37,177 bases of DNA from a virus: positions 1 to 37,177 of the IMG/VR virus record IMGVR_UViG_3300033149_005319, one strand, 5' to 3'. Shown here one piece after another: positions 6,846-26,780 of this stretch (positions within the stretch are counted from its first letter, which is position 1; each line of letters starts with the position of its first letter). Both the position numbers and the translations under genes were made by a program. The notes beneath the pieces were generated by a model. It was given only the letters and a program-made list of their open reading frames with translations. It was not told the origin of the DNA and did not search any database.

Positions 6846-8465
6846 ATGCGAAAACCCCAACCGCTCGGCGATCCCAGCCAAGTGGCTACGGCGCTGCAAA
6901 CGCCGACCGAAGTGGTCCAGTTGGCCGTCAAGTCGATCGATGCGAGCCCGTATCAGCCGCGGATGGATTTTCCCGAGGCCGAGATCGCCGGCCTGGCCGA
7001 CTCGATCGAGACCCACGGACAACTCCAGCCGATCAGCGTGCGCAAGAAAGGCAAGCGATACGAGCTGCTCGACGGCGAGCGGCGCCTGCGGGCGATCAAG
7101 TCGCTGCAGCGGCCCATGATCCGGGCGGAAATCGAACAGCGCAGCGACGCGGAGGCCCGGGCGATCGTGCTCGTCTCGGCGCTGCAGCGGAAAGAACTCA
7201 ATGCGATCGAGGAGGCCCGGGCCTTCCAGGCGGGCATCGACGCCGGCGACGCGCCCGGGCCGACCGAGCTGGCCCGGCAGCTCGGACTTTCTCAGGGCCA
7301 CGTCTCCAACCGATTGCGGCTGTTGAAGTTGCCCGAGTCGATCCGCCGGAGAGTCATTTCGCAGGAAATACCGGCCACCCACGCCCGCGAGATCGCCAAG
7401 TACCTGGATTTTCCCAAGCTGCTGTTGGCGATCGAAAAACGGCTCGACGCCGAACTGAAACGCAACGGCGATTTGGGCCCGGTGAGCTACTTTGCCCAGG
7501 AGATCGCCTACGCGCTGACGGCACACACCAAGCCGCTGGAGGGCCACCAGTGGGATTCCAAGACGGGCTGCCGCGTGCCGGTGTTCGCGCCCAGCGAAGA
7601 GCAGGCCGGCCGGCTCGGGATTGTGGAGTTGCACCACGGCGAGCGACGCGCGACCAATACGAAACTGTGGGACCAACTGCAGGCCGCGCACCGCCGGGAG
7701 TGGCTGAAGGAACAGGCCAAGAAGGCCGCGGCGAAGTCGAAATCGAGAAACGGCAAACCCAAACCGAAAAAGCTCACGCCGGCCCAGCAGAAGAAGCTGG
7801 CGGAGGAAGAGCGGAGGAGGGCCAAAGAGCGGGCCGACCAATTCCGCCGCCGGCTGGAGGCGTGGAAGGTTGATTGGCAACGATACCTGGTGGCCGACTT
7901 CTTGTTGAACCGGGCCGACCCCACGGAGCTCTTGCGGTTGGCGATCGTGCTGGCCGGCCGCAACGGGGCCTACCGCCACGCGCACGATTCGCTGCAAGCG
8001 ATGCACCGGGCGCTCAAACAGAACGGCGTGCGGCCCGGCGGGCGCGGCGAGCAACTCTGCGGGCTGGTCCTCTCGCTCGACGAGCCGGCCGTGGCCGGGT
8101 TCGCCGCAGAGGTCCTCTCCGGCTGGTTCTACGACGAGAAGGAAGGGCCGCGGCCGTTTATCGACGCCGCCACCGTCGAGGACCTGGTGCGATACTTCGG
8201 GATCGACCTGGCCGACTGCTGGCTCGACGAGCAGGCCGGCCCACTTTCGGAGGCCTTTTGGAATCTGCACGGCAAGGAGCAGCTCGTCGCGCTGGGAAAG
8301 GAACTCGACGTGCGGATCACGCCGGCGATGAAGAAGAGCCAGGCCGTGGCCGCCTTCCTGGCCGAAAAGCCGGCCGCCGACTCCAAAGAGGCCGGGCGGC
8401 TGGAGTTGCCCAAGGAGCTGCGCGGCGGCAAGCGGCCGAAGAAGAGAATCGGGAACCACGGATGA
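6846..8465 (+). CDS. ParB-like DNA-binding protein (large)
   Basis: A 539-residue protein. The ParB N-terminal domain (about 28-125) has SPYQPRMDFPEAEIAGLADS and the CTP-binding GERRLRA box at 77-83. A central helix-turn-helix lies at about 139-160 (TELARQLGLSQGHVSNRLRL). A Lys/Ala-rich coiled region spans about 285-340, then a C-terminal helical domain of unknown type. No ParA is nearby and no parS-like repeats were seen, so it may not be a partition protein; phage ParB-like proteins can also be regulators or nucleases. ATG 6846 follows GAAGGAGCCCAGCC. Its stop overlaps the next start (ATGA), within a family D repeat. Confidence 0.85.
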   Translation: MRKPQPLGDPSQVATALQTPTEVVQLAVKSIDASPYQPRMDFPEAEIAGLADSIETHGQLQPISVRKKGKRYELLDGERRLRAIKSLQRPMIRAEIEQRSDAEARAIVLVSALQRKELNAIEEARAFQAGIDAGDAPGPTELARQLGLSQGHVSNRLRLLKLPESIRRRVISQEIPATHAREIAKYLDFPKLLLAIEKRLDAELKRNGDLGPVSYFAQEIAYALTAHTKPLEGHQWDSKTGCRVPVFAPSEEQAGRLGIVELHHGERRATNTKLWDQLQAAHRREWLKEQAKKAAAKSKSRNGKPKPKKLTPAQQKKLAEEERRRAKERADQFRRRLEAWKVDWQRYLVADFLLNRADPTELLRLAIVLAGRNGAYRHAHDSLQAMHRALKQNGVRPGGRGEQLCGLVLSLDEPAVAGFAAEVLSGWFYDEKEGPRPFIDAATVEDLVRYFGIDLADCWLDEQAGPLSEAFWNLHGKEQLVALGKELDVRITPAMKKSQAVAAFLAEKPAADSKEAGRLELPKELRGGKRPKKRIGNHG

Positions 8466-14218: not shown

Positions 14219-15532
14219 ATGCGTGTGCAACTCCGGCCGATCGGCCAGATTCGCCCCTACGAGAAGAATCCGCGGCACAACGACGCCGCGGTCGACGCGG
14301 TGTGCGAATCGATCCGCCAGTTCGGCTGGCGCCAGCCGATCGTGGTGGATCCGGACGGGATGATCATGGTCGGTCACGCCCGCTACAAGGCGGCGCTGAA
14401 GCTCGGCCTGGAAAAGGTCCCGGTCCACGTGGCCACCGATCTTATGCCGGAGCAGATCCGGGCCTACCGAATCGCCGACAACCGATCGGGCGAACTCTCC
14501 GAGTGGGACCTCGACCTGTTGCCGATCGAACTGAGCGAGCTGCAGGCGGCCGACTTCGATCTCTCGATACTGGGCTGGTCGGAAGACGACCTGGCCAAGC
14601 TGCTCGACTCGGACGTGAAGGACGGCCTGACGGATCCCGACGAGATCCCCGAGCCACCCGACGAACCGATCACGCGGCCCGGCGATCTGTGGATCCTCGG
14701 CGACCACCGCTTGCTCTGCGGCGACTCCAGCAAACCCGACGAGGTCGACCGTCTGCTCGGCGGCGCCGCGATCCACCTGGTCAACAGCGATCCGCCGTAC
14801 AACGTCCGGGTCGAACCGCGGAGCAACAACGCGATCGCCGCGGGCAACACCAGCTTTACCAGCCCGAAGAAGCGCCACCAGCGCTTCGACGTGAAGCGGC
14901 ATCCCGAGAAGTCCAAGGTGACCCACAGGAAGCTGCGACCGAAGGACCGCCCGCTGGAGAACGACTTCCTGAGCGACCACGAGTTCGACCGGCTGTTGGA
15001 CGCCTGGTTCGGCAAGATGGCCCGCGTGCTTAAGCCCGGGCGCAGCTTCTACCTGTGGGGCGGTTACGCCAACTGCGCCAAGTACCCGCCGGTGCTAAAA
15101 CGGCACAAGCTCTACTTTTCCCAGGCGATCATTTGGGACAAGGAGCACCCGGTGGTGAGCCGCAAGGACTTCATGGGCGCGCACGAATGGTGCTTCTATG
15201 GCTGGAAGGAAGGCGCAGCCCACCAGTTCCTCGGCCCCAACAACGTGCCCGATCTCTGGCACGTCAAGAAGAGGGATGCCAACAAGATGGTCCATTTGAC
15301 CGAGAAGCCGGTCGAGTTGGCCGTCCGCGCGATGCAGTACTCCTCGCGGGCCGGCGAGCACGTCCTGGACCTGTTCGGCGGCAGTGGGAGCACGCTGATC
15401 GCCGCCGAGCAAACCGGTCGCAAGGCCTTTGTGATGGAACTCGACGCGGCCTACTGCGAGGTCATCGTCCGGCGGTGGGAGCAATTCACCGGCAAGAAGG
15501 CCCGGCGGAAAAGTGTGGAGGCCGCGGCATGA
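14219..15532 (+). CDS. ParB-domain/DNA methyltransferase fusion
   Basis: A 437-residue protein. Residues about 1-85 are a ParB/Srx-like domain (PYEKNPRHNDAAVDAVCESI, then DGMIMVGHARYKAALKLG). Residues about 165-425 are an N6-adenine/N4-cytosine methyltransferase of beta type: SDPPYNV with Asp191 (motif IV), then LFGGSGSTLIAAEQTGR at about 385 (motif I), and EKPVELAVRAM before it. This fusion is widespread in phages and prophages. It should methylate phage DNA against restriction or silence host sites. A purine-rich TTCTGGAGGCCGCTCC with GGAGG precedes the ATG. Confidence 0.9.
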   Translation: MRVQLRPIGQIRPYEKNPRHNDAAVDAVCESIRQFGWRQPIVVDPDGMIMVGHARYKAALKLGLEKVPVHVATDLMPEQIRAYRIADNRSGELSEWDLDLLPIELSELQAADFDLSILGWSEDDLAKLLDSDVKDGLTDPDEIPEPPDEPITRPGDLWILGDHRLLCGDSSKPDEVDRLLGGAAIHLVNSDPPYNVRVEPRSNNAIAAGNTSFTSPKKRHQRFDVKRHPEKSKVTHRKLRPKDRPLENDFLSDHEFDRLLDAWFGKMARVLKPGRSFYLWGGYANCAKYPPVLKRHKLYFSQAIIWDKEHPVVSRKDFMGAHEWCFYGWKEGAAHQFLGPNNVPDLWHVKKRDANKMVHLTEKPVELAVRAMQYSSRAGEHVLDLFGGSGSTLIAAEQTGRKAFVMELDAAYCEVIVRRWEQFTGKKARRKSVEAAA

Positions 15533-15864: not shown

Positions 15865-15891
15865 ATGCTGAATAAGCAGCACGATGGGTAA
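15865..15891 (+). CDS. possible 8-residue leader peptide before terL
   Basis: ATG at 15865 opens MLNKQHDG and stops with TAA at 15889-15891, overlapping the terminase ATG (15884) by eight bases. Such an arrangement can couple translation. It contains a small dyad GCTG/CAGC. Confidence 0.2.
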   Translation: MLNKQHDG

Positions 15892-18295
15892 GAAGAAGAT
15901 CGACAAGCGGGCCGGCCGCGCTCCAAGAAAACCTCGCGGCGACAAACTCTTGGCCGCGCTGGCCGCCGCATTGGAGGAGCTCCATCTGGTGAGCCACGAT
16001 CCCCGCCGCCTGCGCCCGGGCGAACTCTGCCGATTGCTCAATTCGACGCCGCTGGGCACCGTGACCACGCAGGCGAAGCTCTATCAGATCCGGCTGAAGG
16101 CCGGTTTCCGGGTCAGCGCCGACGGCAAGCACGTCGATCTTTTTCGCCTGGCGGCGTGGCTGGCCGGAGAGAGACGAGGGGGGCGGAACGAGTCCCCAGC
16201 CCCCAGCCCCCAATCCCCAGCCCCCAATCCCCAATCCCCCGATTCCTACGCGGCGATCAAGGAGCGGGCCCGGGCCCGCGGCGCGGCGGCCTCGCTGGCC
16301 GGCCGCGACATCGGCCCGCTACCGAGGGTCGCCCACCCCAAGCTGAAGAAGCGAGCCACCACGGACTTCCGCTTCTTCTGCGAGCACTATTTTCCGTCGA
16401 CCTTCACCCTGGCCTTCTCGGCGGATCACCTCCGGGTGATCGCCAAGATCGAGGAGGCCGTGCTCCGCGGCGGCCTGTTCGCGATGGCCATGCCGCGAGG
16501 CACCGGCAAGACCTCGCTGTGCGAGTGCGCCTGCCTGTGGGCCGCGCTTTTCGGCCACCGGGAGTTCGTGGCCCTGATCGGTGCGAGCAAGGACGCCGCG
16601 CTGGAGATGATCGAGTCGATCAAGTCGGAGCTGCAGGACAACGACCTGCTGGCCGAGGATTTTCCCGAGGTCTGTTACCCGATCGGCCGCCTCGAGGGGA
16701 TCGCCAACCGCTGCGCCGGCCAGCTCCACCTCGGCCGGCGGACGACAATCGGCTGGACCCGCCAGGCGATCGTCTTGCCTACGATCGCCGGAAGCAAGGC
16801 GTCCGGCGCAATCCTCCGCGTGGCGGGAATTACCGGCCGGATCCGCGGTATGAAATTCAAGCGGGCCGACGGCGAATCCGTGCGGCCCTCGCTGGTGATC
16901 GTCGACGACCCGCAGACCGACGAATCGGCCCGCAGCCTCTCCCAGCGGGAATCGCGGCGGAGGATCCTCGCCGGTGCGATCCTCGGCCTGGCCGGCCCGG
17001 GCAAGAAGATCGCCGGCGTGATGCCCTGCACCGTGATCTGTGCCGACGACGTCGCCGACGAATTTCTGGACAGACAAAAACACCCGGAATGGCAGGGCGA
17101 ACGGACCAAGATGGTCTACGCGTTCCCCGCCGACGAAAAACTCTGGGAACAGTACGCGGAGATCCGGGCCGAGGGACTGCGCTGGGGGCGGGGCCTGGCC
17201 GAGGCCACCGATTTTTACCGCCAGCGGCAGAGCGAAATGGACGCCGGTGCGGTGGTCGCCTGGCCCGAGCGGTTCGAGCCGGACGAGATCTCGGCCGTGC
17301 AGCACGCGATGAACCTCAAGCTTCGCGACGAGCGGGCCTTCTTCGCCGAGTACCAGAACGAGCCGCTGCCGGAGCAGGCGGAGATCCAGGACCTCTCGGC
17401 CGACGGGATCGCCGGCAAGTTCAATCGGCTGAAGCGATGCGAAGTACCGCTGGGGGCCTCGGGGCTGACTGCCTTCATCGATGTGCAGCAGGCCCTGCTG
17501 TTCTACCTGGTCGTCGCCTGGGAGCCCGACTTCACCGGCTACGTGGTGGACTACGGCGTGTACCCCAAGCAGAAGCGAAACTACTTCACCCTCCGCGACG
17601 CTCACCCGACCTTGGCCGCGGTGGCCCCGGCGGCCGGATTGGAGGGCTCGATCTACGCCGGCCTGGAGACACTCACCGGCGAACTGCTCGGCCGCGAGTG
17701 GAAGCGGGACGACGGCGCGGTGATGCGGATCGAACGCTGCCTGATCGACGCCAACTGGGGCCAGTCGACCGACGTCGTCTACCAGTTCTGCCGCCAGAGC
17801 AAGTATGCGGCCGTATTGACCCCTAGCCACGGCCGCTACGTGGGCGCCAGTTCGATCCCGTTTTCCGACTACAAGAAAAAGCAGGCGGACCGTCTCGGGC
17901 ACAATTGGCGGATTCCCTCAATCCGCGGCAAGCGAGCCGTGCGTCACGTACTCTACGACACCAACTACTGGAAGTCGTTCGTCTACGCCCGCCTGGCCGT
18001 GGCCATGGGCGACCGAGGCTGCCTGTCGCTGTTCGGTGACAAGCCGGCGCTCCACCGACTGCTGGCCGAGCATCTGACGGCCGAGTACCGCGTCAAGACG
18101 GAGGCCCGGGGCCGGACGGTTGACGAATGGAAGACGCGGGGGCCGGGCCTCGACAACCACTGGTTCGACTGCCTGGTCGGCGCCGCCGTGGCCGCCTCGA
18201 TGCAGGGGGCCTCCCTGCCGGGTACCGAGGTCCGGCCGGCCGGCCGGCGACGCCGAGTGAGTTTTGCCCAGATGCAAGCGGCCGCGAAACGATGA
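15884..18295 (+). CDS. terL: terminase large subunit with N-terminal DNA-binding-like extension
   Basis: An 803-residue packaging motor. Residues about 20-100 are a basic helical domain (LRPGELCRLLNSTPLGTVTT, then FRVSADGKHVDLFRLAAWLA) that resembles a helix-turn-helix. Residues about 105-122 are a linker encoded by family B repeats (SPAPSPQSPAPNPQSPDS). The ATPase has Walker A MPRGTGKTS (about 203-211) and Walker B SLVIVDD (about 336-342). The nuclease part shows IDANWGQSTD (about 620) and a late DCLVGAA (about 760). Terminases commonly have a separate small subunit; none is seen, so the N-terminal domain may do its work. No good Shine-Dalgarno; stop overlaps the next ATG. Confidence 0.85.
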   Translation: MGKKKIDKRAGRAPRKPRGDKLLAALAAALEELHLVSHDPRRLRPGELCRLLNSTPLGTVTTQAKLYQIRLKAGFRVSADGKHVDLFRLAAWLAGERRGGRNESPAPSPQSPAPNPQSPDSYAAIKERARARGAAASLAGRDIGPLPRVAHPKLKKRATTDFRFFCEHYFPSTFTLAFSADHLRVIAKIEEAVLRGGLFAMAMPRGTGKTSLCECACLWAALFGHREFVALIGASKDAALEMIESIKSELQDNDLLAEDFPEVCYPIGRLEGIANRCAGQLHLGRRTTIGWTRQAIVLPTIAGSKASGAILRVAGITGRIRGMKFKRADGESVRPSLVIVDDPQTDESARSLSQRESRRRILAGAILGLAGPGKKIAGVMPCTVICADDVADEFLDRQKHPEWQGERTKMVYAFPADEKLWEQYAEIRAEGLRWGRGLAEATDFYRQRQSEMDAGAVVAWPERFEPDEISAVQHAMNLKLRDERAFFAEYQNEPLPEQAEIQDLSADGIAGKFNRLKRCEVPLGASGLTAFIDVQQALLFYLVVAWEPDFTGYVVDYGVYPKQKRNYFTLRDAHPTLAAVAPAAGLEGSIYAGLETLTGELLGREWKRDDGAVMRIERCLIDANWGQSTDVVYQFCRQSKYAAVLTPSHGRYVGASSIPFSDYKKKQADRLGHNWRIPSIRGKRAVRHVLYDTNYWKSFVYARLAVAMGDRGCLSLFGDKPALHRLLAEHLTAEYRVKTEARGRTVDEWKTRGPGLDNHWFDCLVGAAVAASMQGASLPGTEVRPAGRRRRVSFAQMQAAAKR

Positions 18296-18628: not shown

Positions 18629-18829
18629 ATGGCCGCCAGCGAACTCGAAATGACCATCGCCCAAAACGCCGCCTCGCCGGCGGAAGTGACCGTCGACGGC
18701 ACCCGCGTCCGCCAGCACCCGCTGCGCGAGCAGATCGAGGCGGACAAGTACGCCAAGCAGACCGCGGCGGCGAGGAAGACTGCCTTTCCGATCCGCCACT
18801 TCAAGCTCGTTCCACCGGGAAGCGCCTGA
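18629..18829 (+). CDS. gpW-like head-tail joining protein
   Basis: A 66-residue protein, MAASELEMTIAQNAASPAEV..., between terminase and portal, exactly where lambda has gpW (68 residues). It shows the short helix, VTVDGTRVRQHPLREQ strand-turn and C-terminal helix, but pairwise similarity is modest. gpW closes the portal after packaging so the tail can attach. Its stop codon is directly followed by the portal ATG (TGAATG). The 169 bp upstream (18460-18628) hold no gene. Confidence 0.6.
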   Translation: MAASELEMTIAQNAASPAEVTVDGTRVRQHPLREQIEADKYAKQTAAARKTAFPIRHFKLVPPGSA

Positions 18830-21800
18830 ATGCCCGCCGCAATCCTCGATCAATATGGTCGCGCGATCCGCCGACAGAGCGGCCGGGCCCGCGGCTCCCT
18901 GACGGCCCGCGAGCGGGCGATCCTCCGCGGCCGCTTCGACGCGGCGCAGACGATCGACGAGAACCGCCGCCACTGGGCCAATGCCGACGCCCTGTCGGCC
19001 GACGCCGCGGCCAGCGCGTCGGTCCGCCAGACGCTCCGCAACCGCGCCCGTTACGAGGCCGAGAACAACAGCTACGCCAAAGGGATCTTGCTGACGCTGG
19101 CCAACGATTGCGTGGGGACCGGGCCGCGGTTGCAGATGCAGGGCGACGACCCGGCAGTCAACGCGACGGTCGAGACGCTCCTGGCCAATTGGGCGCGGCG
19201 GGTCCATTTGGCGGCCAAGCTCCGGACGCTGCGAATCGCCCGGGCCCGCGACGGCGAGGCCTTCGCGTTGCTGATCGCCAACCTGGGACTGGACGGCCCC
19301 GTCAAGCTCGACCTGCGACTGCTGGAGGCCGACCAGGTGGCCAGCCCGTCGCCCCTGCTGTCCCCCTACGCGGTCGATGGCATCCGCTTCGACACCTTCG
19401 GCAATCCGATCGAGTACGACGTGCTCCGCGAACACCCGGGCGCCACCGGCACGGCCACCCTCGGCGGTTTCATCGCCGACGCGATCCCGGCGCGTTACGT
19501 GCTCCATCTGTTTCGCGAGGATCGCCCGGGCCAGCGCCGCGGCATTCCTGAGATCACCCCCGCGCTGCCCCTGTTCAGCCAACTCCGCCGCTACACGCTG
19601 GCCGTGCTGGGGGCCGCCGAGACGGCCGCCGACTACGCGGCCGTGCTGCAGAATCAGAATCCGCCCGACAGCGAGGACGCCACCACGGGCGACGCCTTCG
19701 AGGCCGTCCAACTCGAGGCCCGCATGGCCACGGTATTGCCCGAGGGCTACACGCTCGGCCAGATCAAAGCCGAGCAGCCGGCCACGACCTACGCCGAATT
19801 CAAAAAGGAGATCCTCAACGAGGCGGCCCGCTGTCTGCTGATCCCCTACAACGTCGCCGCCTGCAACAGCGCGGACTACAACTACGCCTCGGGCCGCCTG
19901 GATCACCAGACCTACCACAAGGCGCTGCGGATCGACCGCGGCGACCTGGAGATCCAATTCCTCGACCGCCTCCTGGAGGCCTTCCTGGAAGAGGCCGAGT
20001 TCCTCGGCCTGGTACCGGCCTATTTCTCGCGAAATGGCCTGCCGCCCCACCAGTGGTTCTGGGACGGCATCCAGCACGTCGATCCGGTCAAGGAGGCGGT
20101 GGCCCAGAAAACCCGGCTCGCCTCGGGCACGACCACGCTGGCCGCCGAATACGCGGCCGAGAACAAGGACTACGAAACCGAGATGCGCCAGCGCAACAAA
20201 GAAGCGGAGCTGCAACTGGAACTCCGCCTGCGACTCGAGGCCCGCGAGAAAGAGCTGCGGCGGGAACTGGGTCTCGGGCTTCCCGCCCCCGCCCCCGCCT
20301 CCTCCTCCCCCGCGATCGCGGCCGCGGCCGACGCCGGCTCCGCGCTGACCTTCGGCGCCGCCGGCGTCGAGATCACCGCGGCCGGCGGCGACGCCCAGAG
20401 CCCGACACCCCAGGTCGCCATCGAGGCCTACAGCGGCGGCATGATGCGGGTGCCCAAGTTCGGCCACGTGGTGATCGATCTGGCCGGCCTGGCGATCGAG
20501 GGGGCCATCCCCATCCTGGCCGACCATGACAACCGCCTCGAGGGAATCGTGGGCCACGGCTCGGCCACCATCCGCGACGGCCGGCTCTGGCTCCGCGGCG
20601 CGGCGGCCGGCAGCGAAACGGCCCGGCAGATCGTCGCCCTGGCCCAGGGCGGTTTTCCCTTCCAGGCCTCGGTCGGGGTCGACCCCGGCGAGCGGATCCC
20701 GATCCGCGCCGGCCAGAGCATCACCGTGAACGGCCGGACAATCACCGCCCCGGCCGGCGGCTTCACCCTCGTGCGGACCAGCCGGCTGCGGGAGGTCTCG
20801 ATCGTTCCGGCCGGCTGCGACCAAGACACCGCCGTCACAGTGACGGCCTCCTCTCCAGACAAAGGACCCCTATCCATGACGTTCAGCGAATGGCTCAAGG
20901 CCAAGGGCTTCGACGAAACCACGCTCAGCGACGCGCAGAAGGCGCCGCTGCAGGCCGCCTTCGAGGCGGAATTGCAGGCCGCCGACAACGGCGATCCGCC
21001 GAACCCGCCGAACCCGCCGAATCCGCCGGCCAACCCGCCGAACCATCGGCGAACCGCGACGCCCCCGCCGTTGCCCACCGAAGGCAACCTCAACGCCTCC
21101 GGCACGCCCGACCTGGTGGCCAAGATGCGGGCCGAACTGGCCGCCGAGTCCCAGCGGATCGCCCAGATCCGGGCCGCCTGCGACGGCCGTTTCCCGGCGA
21201 TCGAGGCCAAGGCGATCGCCGAGGGCTGGGACGAGACGAGGACGCAGCTCGAGGTCCTGCGGGCCGAGCGCCCCACCGGGCCGGCGATCCACTCCCGCAA
21301 CAACGACCAGGTCCGCGACGCGGCGGTGATCGAGGCGGCGCTGTGCATGCAGGCGGGCCTGAACGTCGAGGAGGACTTCAACGAGCAGACGCTTGAGGCG
21401 GGCTACCGCTACCGCCGGCGCGGCTTCCGCTGGTGCGCCGAACAGCTGTGCGCCTCCCGCGGCCGACCGATCGACGCCGACCCCGGCAGCCGCGAGTGGA
21501 TCCAGGCCGCCTTCTCCACCAGCGAACTCTCCGGCATCGTCGGCGCCGTCGCCAACAAGGCCCTGCAGAAAGCCTTCCTGGCCACCCCGACCGTGGCTGG
21601 CCGGATCTGCGCGACCCGCTCGCACACGAACTTCCACTCCCACACGGTGTACAGCCTGGCCATCACCGGCGACCTGGAGCAGGTCGGCTCCGACGGCGAG
21701 CTGAAGCACCTGAAGCTGGGCGAGGAATCCCGCACCCGCCAGGTGCAGACCAAGGGCGCGCTGTTGTCGATCAGCCGCCAGGACCTGGTCAACGACGACC

Positions 21801-22414
21801 TGGGCGCCTTCACCGACGCCTCGGCCGTGCTGGGCCGCAAAGCCGTCACCAGCCGCGAAAAGGCCCTCTTCACGCTCCTGAACGCCACCGGGGCCGGATC
21901 GAGCCACTTCACCACCGCGCGGGGCAACTACTTCGCCGGCGCGTCCACGAACCTGCAATCGTCCAGCCTAGCCACCGCCGAGCAGATGTTCCTCGACCAG
22001 ACGGCCCCGGATGGCGATCCGGTGTCGATCAACCCGCGGATCCTGCTGGTCCCCACGGCGCTGAAGGCCACCGCCCGCGAACTGATGACCAGCCAGTTTC
22101 TCGTCGGCCCGACGACGTCGAAGACGCCCAGCAACAACGTCTGGCAGGGAGCCTTCGAGGACCTCTCCAGTCCCTGGATGTCGAACACCAACCTGACCGG
22201 CTACTCCTCGACCGCCTGGTACCTGCTGGCCGACCCGGCCGACGTGCCGGCGCTGGAGATCGCCTACCTCAACGGTATGGCCCAGCCCACCATCGAGTTC
22301 TTCGGACTCGACGCCGACCCCAACGTCCTGGGCGTCACCTGGCGGGTCTACTGGGACTTCGGCGTCGCGTTGGGCGAGTACCGCGCGGGAGTCAAGTCCA
22401 AGGGCGCCGCGTAG
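18830..22414 (+). CDS. portal-prohead protease-major capsid polyprotein
   Basis: A single uninterrupted 1194-residue frame with three phage head proteins. Residues about 1-500 match lambda gpB-family portals (NRARYEAENNSYAKGILLTL, NDCVGTGPRLQM, YASGRLDHQTYHKALR). A low-complexity Ala/Pro joint (about 490-525) leads to a prohead serine protease (about 528-680; His566 in LADHDNR, Ser614 in FQASVGVDP, LREVSIVPAG). From 683 come a helical scaffold-like region with a Pro-Asn linker and then a major capsid protein (about 830-1194; GELKHLKLGEESRTRQV, ALLSISRQDLVNDDL, ASAVLGRKA) of the Mu gpT-like HK97-fold group. An ATG at 20876 with AAAGGA at proper distance could make capsid alone. Confidence 0.85.
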   Translation: MPAAILDQYGRAIRRQSGRARGSLTARERAILRGRFDAAQTIDENRRHWANADALSADAAASASVRQTLRNRARYEAENNSYAKGILLTLANDCVGTGPRLQMQGDDPAVNATVETLLANWARRVHLAAKLRTLRIARARDGEAFALLIANLGLDGPVKLDLRLLEADQVASPSPLLSPYAVDGIRFDTFGNPIEYDVLREHPGATGTATLGGFIADAIPARYVLHLFREDRPGQRRGIPEITPALPLFSQLRRYTLAVLGAAETAADYAAVLQNQNPPDSEDATTGDAFEAVQLEARMATVLPEGYTLGQIKAEQPATTYAEFKKEILNEAARCLLIPYNVAACNSADYNYASGRLDHQTYHKALRIDRGDLEIQFLDRLLEAFLEEAEFLGLVPAYFSRNGLPPHQWFWDGIQHVDPVKEAVAQKTRLASGTTTLAAEYAAENKDYETEMRQRNKEAELQLELRLRLEAREKELRRELGLGLPAPAPASSSPAIAAAADAGSALTFGAAGVEITAAGGDAQSPTPQVAIEAYSGGMMRVPKFGHVVIDLAGLAIEGAIPILADHDNRLEGIVGHGSATIRDGRLWLRGAAAGSETARQIVALAQGGFPFQASVGVDPGERIPIRAGQSITVNGRTITAPAGGFTLVRTSRLREVSIVPAGCDQDTAVTVTASSPDKGPLSMTFSEWLKAKGFDETTLSDAQKAPLQAAFEAELQAADNGDPPNPPNPPNPPANPPNHRRTATPPPLPTEGNLNASGTPDLVAKMRAELAAESQRIAQIRAACDGRFPAIEAKAIAEGWDETRTQLEVLRAERPTGPAIHSRNNDQVRDAAVIEAALCMQAGLNVEEDFNEQTLEAGYRYRRRGFRWCAEQLCASRGRPIDADPGSREWIQAAFSTSELSGIVGAVANKALQKAFLATPTVAGRICATRSHTNFHSHTVYSLAITGDLEQVGSDGELKHLKLGEESRTRQVQTKGALLSISRQDLVNDDLGAFTDASAVLGRKAVTSREKALFTLLNATGAGSSHFTTARGNYFAGASTNLQSSSLATAEQMFLDQTAPDGDPVSINPRILLVPTALKATARELMTSQFLVGPTTSKTPSNNVWQGAFEDLSSPWMSNTNLTGYSSTAWYLLADPADVPALEIAYLNGMAQPTIEFFGLDADPNVLGVTWRVYWDFGVALGEYRAGVKSKGAA
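20831..20878 (+). promoter_or_regulatory. internal translation start for the major capsid protein
   Basis: AAAGGA (20861-20866) lies nine bases before an in-frame ATG at 20876 (MTFSEWLKAKGF), matching the likely N-terminus of a scaffold-capsid protein. A 17-bp palindrome (GCCGTCAC-A-GTGACGGC, 20831-20847) stands just upstream. This suggests a former or active independent start. Confidence 0.55.
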
Positions 22415-22480: not shown

Positions 22481-23338
22481 ATGACCCAAGCCATTTTCAT
22501 GCAAGTCGGCGACGACCTCGACTACACGCCGGGCGCCGACATCTCGGCTGGCCAGGTCGTCGTGCTGGGTAGCCGCGTGCTGGTCGCCAAGCGAGCGATC
22601 GCCTCGGGCGACCTCGGCGCACTCTCCACCCGCGGTCTGTTCAAGGTCGTCAAGGACACCTCGACCTTCACGGCCGGCGCGGCCGTCTATTGGGACGAGG
22701 ACGGCGATCCGGTCGACGGCGACGCCGGTACCGGCGCCGCCACGTCCTCGGCCACCGGCAACGAATTCATGGGCATCGTCTCGCCCGACGGAGCGGCCGC
22801 CACCGGCGACGCGACCGTGGAGGTCTTTCTCCGCAGTTACAACGATTCCACGTTGGAATCGCTCGGAGTGAGCGACCTGTCCGACGTCGGCGCCGTCGCC
22901 TACACCGCCGGCAGTGTGCTGGTCGGCGACGGCGACTCCTACGAGGAGGTCGCGATCTCCGGCGATGCCACGCTGGCGGCCAATGGAGCCCTGACCCTGG
23001 CGGCCGACGAAAAGAACCTCACCACGGCGATTGCCGATCCCGGAGACGCCGGCGCGATCCCGGTGACCAACACGGGGTATTGCCCGCTGGTGACTGAGGA
23101 CGCCGAGACCCGCACGCTGGACGCGCCGACCTATTGCGGCCAGATGCTGTTGCTGTTTATGAAGACCGACGGCGGCGACTGCGTGGTGACCTGCGCAACC
23201 ACGCTGAACGAGACCGGCAACAACACGATCACCTTCGCCAACACCGGCGAGGCCGTGTTGCTGATCGGCGTCGACGAGGGCGCGAGCAAGCGGTGGCGGA
23301 TCGCCACGGCCGACGGCGCCACGCTGTCGACGGTGTAG
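22481..23338 (+). CDS. capsid decoration protein (DUF2190-like) with C-terminal extension
   Basis: A 285-residue protein. Residues about 1-110 match the DUF2190 group of small capsid proteins that follow the major capsid gene: YTPGADISAGQVVVLGSRVL, VAKRAIASGDLGALSTRGLF, AGAAVYWDEDGD. The other 175 residues (many Thr, Asp and Gly, strands such as CVVTCATTLNETGNNTITFA) look like an added beta domain, perhaps exposed on the capsid. No Shine-Dalgarno; a family E repeat ends just before ATG. Confidence 0.75.
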   Translation: MTQAIFMQVGDDLDYTPGADISAGQVVVLGSRVLVAKRAIASGDLGALSTRGLFKVVKDTSTFTAGAAVYWDEDGDPVDGDAGTGAATSSATGNEFMGIVSPDGAAATGDATVEVFLRSYNDSTLESLGVSDLSDVGAVAYTAGSVLVGDGDSYEEVAISGDATLAANGALTLAADEKNLTTAIADPGDAGAIPVTNTGYCPLVTEDAETRTLDAPTYCGQMLLLFMKTDGGDCVVTCATTLNETGNNTITFANTGEAVLLIGVDEGASKRWRIATADGATLSTV

Positions 23339-25485: not shown

Positions 25486-26103
25486 ATGGAAGCCACCATT
25501 CAGCATATTTGTTCACTGCCCGGTCAGACCGTCCGGGGGACGATCACCAAGACGGCCACCGCGGGGTTGCCGCCTCAGGAAGTCCCGCTGCCGGCGGGCG
25601 TTGCCGGGACGCTTTCGACCCGGACCGACGACGACACCGCTGTGATTACCGCAGCCGGTCACTCCCTGCAACAGGATGACAAGGTCGATGTCTATTGGGC
25701 CGGCGGCCGTCGCTACGGGATGACCGTGTCCTCGGTCGATGGCAACAACGTCACGGTCGGCACCGACGCGGGCCACGTCGGCAACGGCGACGCCTTCCCC
25801 GCGCAAGACACCGCCGTGGTGATCACCGAGCAGGTGGTGATCGACCTGGAGATCGACGGCGACGCGCTGGTCTGTATCGCCGCCGGGGCCGACCAGCGGG
25901 CCCACCTGGAGTTCCACGACGGCGTAACCACGTCGATCGCCGCGGCCGAGATCCCGGCCGCCGGCGAAAGCTGGTCCTGGGTCGAGGACTCCGGTTACAC
26001 CAACCCGCTGGCCGGCGACGTGACCGAAGAGATCCGTTGCAGCAACGGCTCGACGACGGCCGCCACGCTGAAACTCGGCGGGCTCTACAACAGCACGTCC
26101 TAA
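25486..26103 (+). CDS. tail protein, tandem paralogue 1
   Basis: A 205-residue protein, similar to the next gene. Shared blocks: PPQEVPLPAGVAGTLS, KVDVYWAGGRRYGMTV, FPAQDTAVVI, RAHLEF, TAATLKLGGLYNSTS. It is beta-rich with many Thr, Val and Gly. Being repeated after the tail tube gene, it may be a tube-decoration or minor tail protein; no family name is certain. It starts after a family C repeat and lacks a Shine-Dalgarno (AACTTCCCATGG). Confidence 0.6.
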   Translation: MEATIQHICSLPGQTVRGTITKTATAGLPPQEVPLPAGVAGTLSTRTDDDTAVITAAGHSLQQDDKVDVYWAGGRRYGMTVSSVDGNNVTVGTDAGHVGNGDAFPAQDTAVVITEQVVIDLEIDGDALVCIAAGADQRAHLEFHDGVTTSIAAAEIPAAGESWSWVEDSGYTNPLAGDVTEEIRCSNGSTTAATLKLGGLYNSTS

Positions 26104-26177: not shown

Positions 26178-26780
26178 ATGCTCCGAGCCATCGTCATCAC
26201 CGATTTCGCCTTCCCCGGCACCACGCTCCGTTCGCAGACCGTCCGTACCGCCACCGGCGGCGTGGCGCCGCAGGAGATCCCGTTGCCGGCCGGCGTGGCC
26301 GGCGTGCTCTCGGATCGAGGGGGTGATTCGATCGGCACGATCACCTTCCCGACCAGCCACGGCTTTGCGGAAGGCGAGTTGGTGGATGTCTATTGGGCCG
26401 GCGGTCTGCGCTACGGCATGACGATCGACCCGCTGGGCAACGGGCTTTATCTCGACGTGCTTGGTGGCGCCGGCGACGTGTTGCCGGCACAAGACACGGC
26501 CGTGGTGGTGGCCGTCAACACGGCCGTCACGCTGCCGATCAACGATACGGAGAACCTCGTGTACATGGCCTTCGGCTGCAATCGCCGTTCGCACCTGGAG
26601 ATCCGCGCGTCCAGCGTAACGATCTACGATCGCGAAATACCGGCAGACGGGCTCTGGTGCATCCGCGACGGATGGGCCGACGCGATGGGTTACTTCGACG
26701 GCCTGCGCGTCTCCAACGGCGGCGTATTGCCGGCCACATTCCGCGTCGCTGGTCTATACAACAGCGTCCCTAACCCCTAA
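26178..26780 (+). CDS. tail protein, tandem paralogue 2
   Basis: A 200-residue protein, paralogue of the preceding one: APQEIPLPAGVAGVLS, LVDVYWAGGLRYGMTI, LPAQDTAVVV, RSHLEIRASS, LPATFRVAGLYNSV. The first residues and the middle differ most. The last three residues (PNP) come from a family B repeat that leads to the next gene. The start stands after AATCCCCAATCCCC without Shine-Dalgarno. Confidence 0.6.
   Translation: MLRAIVITDFAFPGTTLRSQTVRTATGGVAPQEIPLPAGVAGVLSDRGGDSIGTITFPTSHGFAEGELVDVYWAGGLRYGMTIDPLGNGLYLDVLGGAGDVLPAQDTAVVVAVNTAVTLPINDTENLVYMAFGCNRRSHLEIRASSVTIYDREIPADGLWCIRDGWADAMGYFDGLRVSNGGVLPATFRVAGLYNSVPNP

Follow-up and report, generated by a model that had tools for sequence, protein, structure and literature searches.

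Gene organization of the head module

The window analysed here is a virus record of 37,177 bases, whose hosts are probably planctomycete bacteria. Its head and tail genes follow an ordinary order: terminase large subunit (15884–18295, plus strand; PHROG 38 and PHROG 15), a small gene at the gpW position (18629–18829, plus strand), portal, protease-capsid, head decoration protein (22481–23338, plus strand; PHROG 122) and tail genes including the tape measure protein. The small gene, whose stop codon abuts the start of the portal-encoding frame, had no PHROG match and is conserved in 182 fetched loci; the RcKemmy gene at the same position is annotated as gpW-like. Elsewhere in the window there were two ParB-domain genes (6846–8465 and 14219–15532), one of them fused to a DNA methylase domain, and a 655-aa open reading frame (ORF) upstream of the terminase with a trypsin-like peptidase domain (PF13365; 12007–13974). 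Two adjoining ORFs (25486–26103 and 26178–26780) matched one common region in the same small set of relatives and look like a tandem duplication.

The portal and protease-capsid functions are encoded by one plus-strand ORF of 1194 codons (18830–22414), which is real and open, without an internal stop.

Domains of the fused open reading frame

The initial annotation had proposed that three head functions share this frame, and profiles from Pfam, PHROGs and NCBIfam recovered all of them: PF05136 for the portal, PHROG 3244 and NF045541 for the protease, and PF25209 for the capsid. The portal domain (18923–20305, plus strand; residues 32–492) matched the lambda-family portal model PF05136 over residues 50–363 (E = 6e-52; 177 bits against a cut-off of 32.9) and a profile of its relatives at 722 bits; the match to TIGR01539 was below the cut-off (128 versus 172.7 bits). 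Solved phage portals were recovered with the profile built from the portal relatives.

The prohead protease domain (20354–20863, plus strand; residues 509–678) was assigned by PHROG 3244 and by the protease/capsid fusion model NF045541. The latter matched residues 556–1193 (E = 5e-78) over 588 of its 634 positions, at 263 bits, without reaching its whole-protein cut-off of 525 bits. His566 (20525–20527), Ser614 (20669–20671) and Glu655 (20792–20794), all on the plus strand, are present in the window and conserved at 99–100% in 141 relatives, and this conservation suggests that they form an intact catalytic triad. The Pfam search gave no match for the protease domain, S78 included, and a sequence search of solved structures matched nothing for it. 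An AlphaFold model of the protease, built from 54 sequences (pLDDT 86), gave herpesvirus assemblin proteases as the best Foldseek hits, with a probability of 1.00 but an E-value of 0.0039 and a TM-score of about 0.4, a likeness that would hold at the level of the fold only. The nearest protease domains among bacterial-genome loci were those of L192, L193 and L194 (51–55%), upstream of which no portal of the window's family was found; protease-capsid modules seem to be combined there with other upstream genes.

The interval between the protease and the capsid shell domain (20876–21400, plus strand; limits approximate) is scaffold-like, a role assigned from its position. The remainder (21401–22411, plus strand) was recognized by PF25209, PF10124 and Foldseek. 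PF25209 matched residues 894–1190 (E = 7e-38; 132 bits against a cut-off of 27), and the scaffold-capsid part, modelled at pLDDT 87, matched the D3 and HK97 capsids in Foldseek (E about 1e-9). By both profile and fold, this part is an HK97-fold major capsid protein.

The portal/protease joint

Between the portal and the protease, a tail rich in Pro, Ala and Ser runs into the protease N-terminus (20282–20413, plus strand) through C-rich DNA of low complexity, without a stop codon and without ATG, GTG or TTG. No in-frame ATG, GTG or TTG occurs from the portal domain up to Met538, and by that codon the first conserved strand of the protease model has already been passed. We rechecked the joint in the window sequence for the missed frameshift that the initial annotation had asked about. 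The GC content at third codon positions was 1.00 in the frame of the ORF at 20280–20399 and lower in the other two frames; it is unbroken through the joint, so nothing suggests a missed frameshift. In the alternative frame the portal would stop at the TGA at 20346–20348, yet a standard start codon for the protease would be lacking there too, so that a single insertion or deletion cannot restore the usual arrangement and a larger loss would be needed. With third-position GC continuous and no indel that regains a start codon, a missed frameshift at either joint was left unsupported. The nearest relatives of the window's portal and those of its protease-capsid part differ; the joint may therefore be a natural mosaic seam or the product of a chimeric assembly.

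Portal fusions are rare and probably arose more than once

Relatives were drawn from IMG/VR and from bacterial genomes, mostly Planctomycetota. In all but a few of these loci the protease and the capsid formed one ORF, and the portal was a separate ORF that usually overlapped the protease start by a few bases. One genome (G001, the L147 genome; Planctomycetes bacterium syqfu, CP087563) held about 14 separate portal/protease-capsid loci, as if it carried many related prophages or a gene-transfer system. The protease/capsid joint at about 20876 is thus the family norm, its two sides sharing a frame in almost every relative, and it is the portal/protease joint alone that is unusual. The picture of three normally separate genes meeting at two unusual joints accordingly stands for the portal and falls for the protease and capsid. 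Likewise, protease-capsid fusions are indeed known, as had been remarked, but "some phages" understates what is the rule in the window's family (NF045541; Gifsy-2). The triple fusion is an uncommon form of a widespread two-part gene.

Its rarity, as initially suspected, was borne out by the counts. The fetched loci together gave 403 distinct portal/protease joints, counted as sequences and not as clusters. Four of them were fused, namely those of the window, L277, L288 and L289, and in 17 others the two parts shared a frame but were separated by a stop. With redundant copies counted, the figures were 5 fused and 22 same-frame joints with a stop among 470. In 392 Planctomycetota genomes, the portal frames listed, drawn from up to four scored candidates in each genome, were at most 682 aa long, and no portal fusion was seen among the matches listed of 267 matching named phages. 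We know of no fused relative more than about 45% identical to the window.

The search for homologous fusions nevertheless yielded three IMG/VR contigs, and uniqueness of the triple fusion to the window was rejected: L277 (2402–5959; 1186 aa), L288 (2405–4933; at least 843 aa, ending at the contig end) and the more distant member L289 (3893–7558; 1222 aa). L277 and L288, which stem from two separate metagenome assemblies, share 92% protein identity, are both continuous through the joint and differ by frame-preserving indels, so that a sequencing error does not explain their fusion. The dN/dS ratios between them were 0.11 for the portal, 0.06 for the protease and 0.25 for the scaffold, and 0.47 for the joint, which has few sites; purifying selection acts on the domains to either side of the joint. 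In L291, which shares about 77% identity with L277, the genes are unfused and the portal stop overlaps the protease start. L277, L288 and L289 retain an in-frame protease start within the fusion (pairing energies −10.3, −10.3 and −5.9). Judged by standard start codons, the window is the only one of the four fusions whose protease is obtainable solely within the portal chain.

In quick trees with SH-aLRT support only, L277, L288, L291 and L289 grouped apart from the window, whose protease-capsid part grouped with the unfused L315 and L324. A single common origin of all fusions was therefore unsupported, the unfused L291 also adjoining L277 and L288, and the portal fusion seems to have arisen at least twice.

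These data also bear on the possibility that the window's joint is an assembly or sequencing artefact, in which a few tens of bases, holding the stop of a really separate portal gene and the start codon of the protease, went missing, or sequences of two phages were linked within the C-rich stretch. The low complexity of that stretch, the different nearest relatives on its two sides and the 399 unfused joints all speak for such an error. However, frame and third-position GC run continuously through the joint, no single indel regains the protease start codon, L277 and L288 show that such fusions exist, and adjacent genes with different neighbours are ordinary phage mosaicism. We consider an artefact unlikely, though a real concern.

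A conserved internal start at the protease/scaffold boundary

At the protease/scaffold boundary of the window, the Shine-Dalgarno-like AAAGGA (20861–20866, plus strand) is followed after 9 nt by an in-frame ATG (20876–20878; the site spans 20861–20878). Initiation there would give a scaffold-capsid product of 512 aa from Met683 (20876–22411, plus strand). By pairing energy (−5.3) the site ranked 12th of 44 in-frame starts, and third-position GC dips to 0.77–0.79 around it. The window's own site is thus weak, and the case for this phage rests on conservation.

An in-frame Met just past the protease domain was present in 109 of 141 relatives, even where the flanking sequence had diverged, and several loci without this Met had GTG with the motif. 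Of 116 boundary Mets, 112 were preceded by 4 nt or more matching the Shine-Dalgarno sequence, versus 19% of other internal Mets, with median pairing energies of −8.25 and −2.4, respectively. When the relatives were grouped into 41 clusters at 70% identity, the Met was found in 35 and an energy of −6 or better in 30. The distance from motif to start peaked at 9 nt, the motif occupied two codon phases, and the hexapeptides encoded across it were of 85 kinds. This variation in phase and peptide indicates that selection is on the nucleotides, and we rejected the idea that the site is a by-product of conserved amino acids.

The pattern was then examined in held-out clusters that shared less than 70% identity among themselves and with the first set; the threshold and the test window had been chosen in knowledge of that set. 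An ATG at −6 or better was found in 62 of 77 clusters versus 40 of 1052 size-matched control windows (3.8%; Fisher p = 7e-60). The boundary start also ranked 1–3 among in-frame starts in the protease-capsid genes of eight named phages, including Gifsy-2 (Met221). In FP_Epona and Dulem virus 34 the same boundary divides two genes, one for the protease and the other for the scaffold-capsid protein. The start is retained in L277, L288 and L289. These results suggest that internal initiation is a conserved property of the protease-capsid gene family and not an ad hoc device of the window's ORF, in which ATG 20876 is likely to be an internal start. Internal initiation, one of the ways in which the initial annotation had thought the copy-number problem might be solved, is thus a likely answer.

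The fusion could also be real and translated from its first start only, all capsid protein being cut from the 1194-aa polyprotein. The apparently active protease would suit this scheme, as would the weakness of the window's internal site by itself. Against it, the portal would then equal the capsid in number, and the internal start with its Shine-Dalgarno motif is conserved family-wide, including at loci with a separate portal. We therefore regard translation from the first start only as improbable.

Comparison with known systems

In phage lambda, an in-frame start within the protease gene C yields the scaffold Nu3. By analogy, the window would share with C/Nu3 an internal in-frame start with a ribosome-binding site at the protease/scaffold boundary, although its site is weaker than average; in lambda, unlike in the window, the capsid protein E and the portal B are separate genes. 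The genes described by NF045541 and PHROG 4523 resemble the window's ORF, in which residues 556–1193 cover nearly the whole model, and the fetched family members have the same internal start; the difference is that their portal is a separate gene. L277, L288 and L289 resemble the window in having portal, protease and capsid in one frame with the scaffold-capsid start kept, and differ in the protease start kept inside the fusion and in their separate origin.

The tripartite capsid gene of Gifsy-2 (Effantin et al. 2010, Virology 402:355, as cited in PMC8814770) likewise lies downstream of the portal and comprises the protease, a middle segment and the capsid, with an ATG and Shine-Dalgarno motif at residue 221, after the protease part; in contrast to the window, its protease is annotated as Clp-type, and its separate portal overlaps it by 86 bases. 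Two-part protease/capsid fusions in the same gene order are described for Rhodobacter phages (PMC8601537) and, with a ClpP-type protease, for Paracoccus prophages (PMC6536676). The portal is separate in both, and the passages on the fusion in these papers do not mention an internal start. Our search, which covered open-access papers, turned up no description of a portal-protease-capsid fusion, nor one of protease-capsid genes with a conserved internal start; either may have been described earlier outside that literature.

A proposed role of the fused chain in head assembly

We favour, with reasonable though incomplete confidence, the reading that the ORF is a genuine head gene, in which loss of the portal stop and of the protease start created one four-part chain, that it has two products, and that the long chain nucleates the head at the portal. 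The stop codon would have disappeared from the portal gene, and the start codon from the protease-scaffold-capsid gene downstream of it. The 1194-aa chain from 18830 would be made in few copies, whereas initiation at the internal ATG (20876) would supply the 512-aa scaffold-capsid protein in many. Through its portal domain, the long chain would form a ring at one vertex and nucleate the head there. In known portals the C-terminal part faces the capsid lumen; if the same holds here, the attached protease and scaffold would sit where they are needed. Short scaffold-capsid chains would co-assemble on the long chain as the shell, after which the protease would cut the joints and the scaffold, cleavage at the joints being suggested by the intact protease. 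For the window's phage, the use of both starts, the cleavage at the joints and the nucleating role are predictions from the sequence. With a capsid domain at the end of each portal chain, assembly might be impeded if that domain is neither cut off nor incorporated into the shell.

A decayed head gene of a dying prophage, its stop lost as neutral damage, is very hard to credit. The rarity of the fusion and a portal/capsid ORF joined by deletion in another genome speak for it, but here every domain, the triad and the adjoining genes for head and tail are intact, and the domains of the fused L277 and L288 are under purifying selection. The ORF in that other genome (G010:C576:18072-19676; 618 aa) directly joins the first part of a portal to the last part of a capsid, apparently by deletion.

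Under the two-product reading, head formation is most likely nucleated at the portal by few long chains, while the shell is built from many short scaffold-capsid chains, a protein that the second start could supply separately and in large amounts. How a shell of hundreds of capsid proteins acquires one portal, and how the number of proteases is set, is a long-standing question. We tentatively propose a fuller answer, which we hold less firmly: there would be no free portal or protease at the outset; each portal subunit would bring a covalently attached protease, scaffold and capsid subunit; the portal ring would be the head nucleus and the protease number would equal that of portal subunits; internally initiated scaffold-capsid protein would complete the shell; and the family's protease-capsid genes would be nested throughout, with two products each. 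With a covalent portal-protease-scaffold-capsid chain, the portal-nucleation model would become open to direct test. An internal start throughout the family also changes how protease-capsid fusion genes ought to be annotated and expressed, two products being probable for them: a protease-capsid clone would keep or lose one of them depending on a site that is invisible in the annotation.
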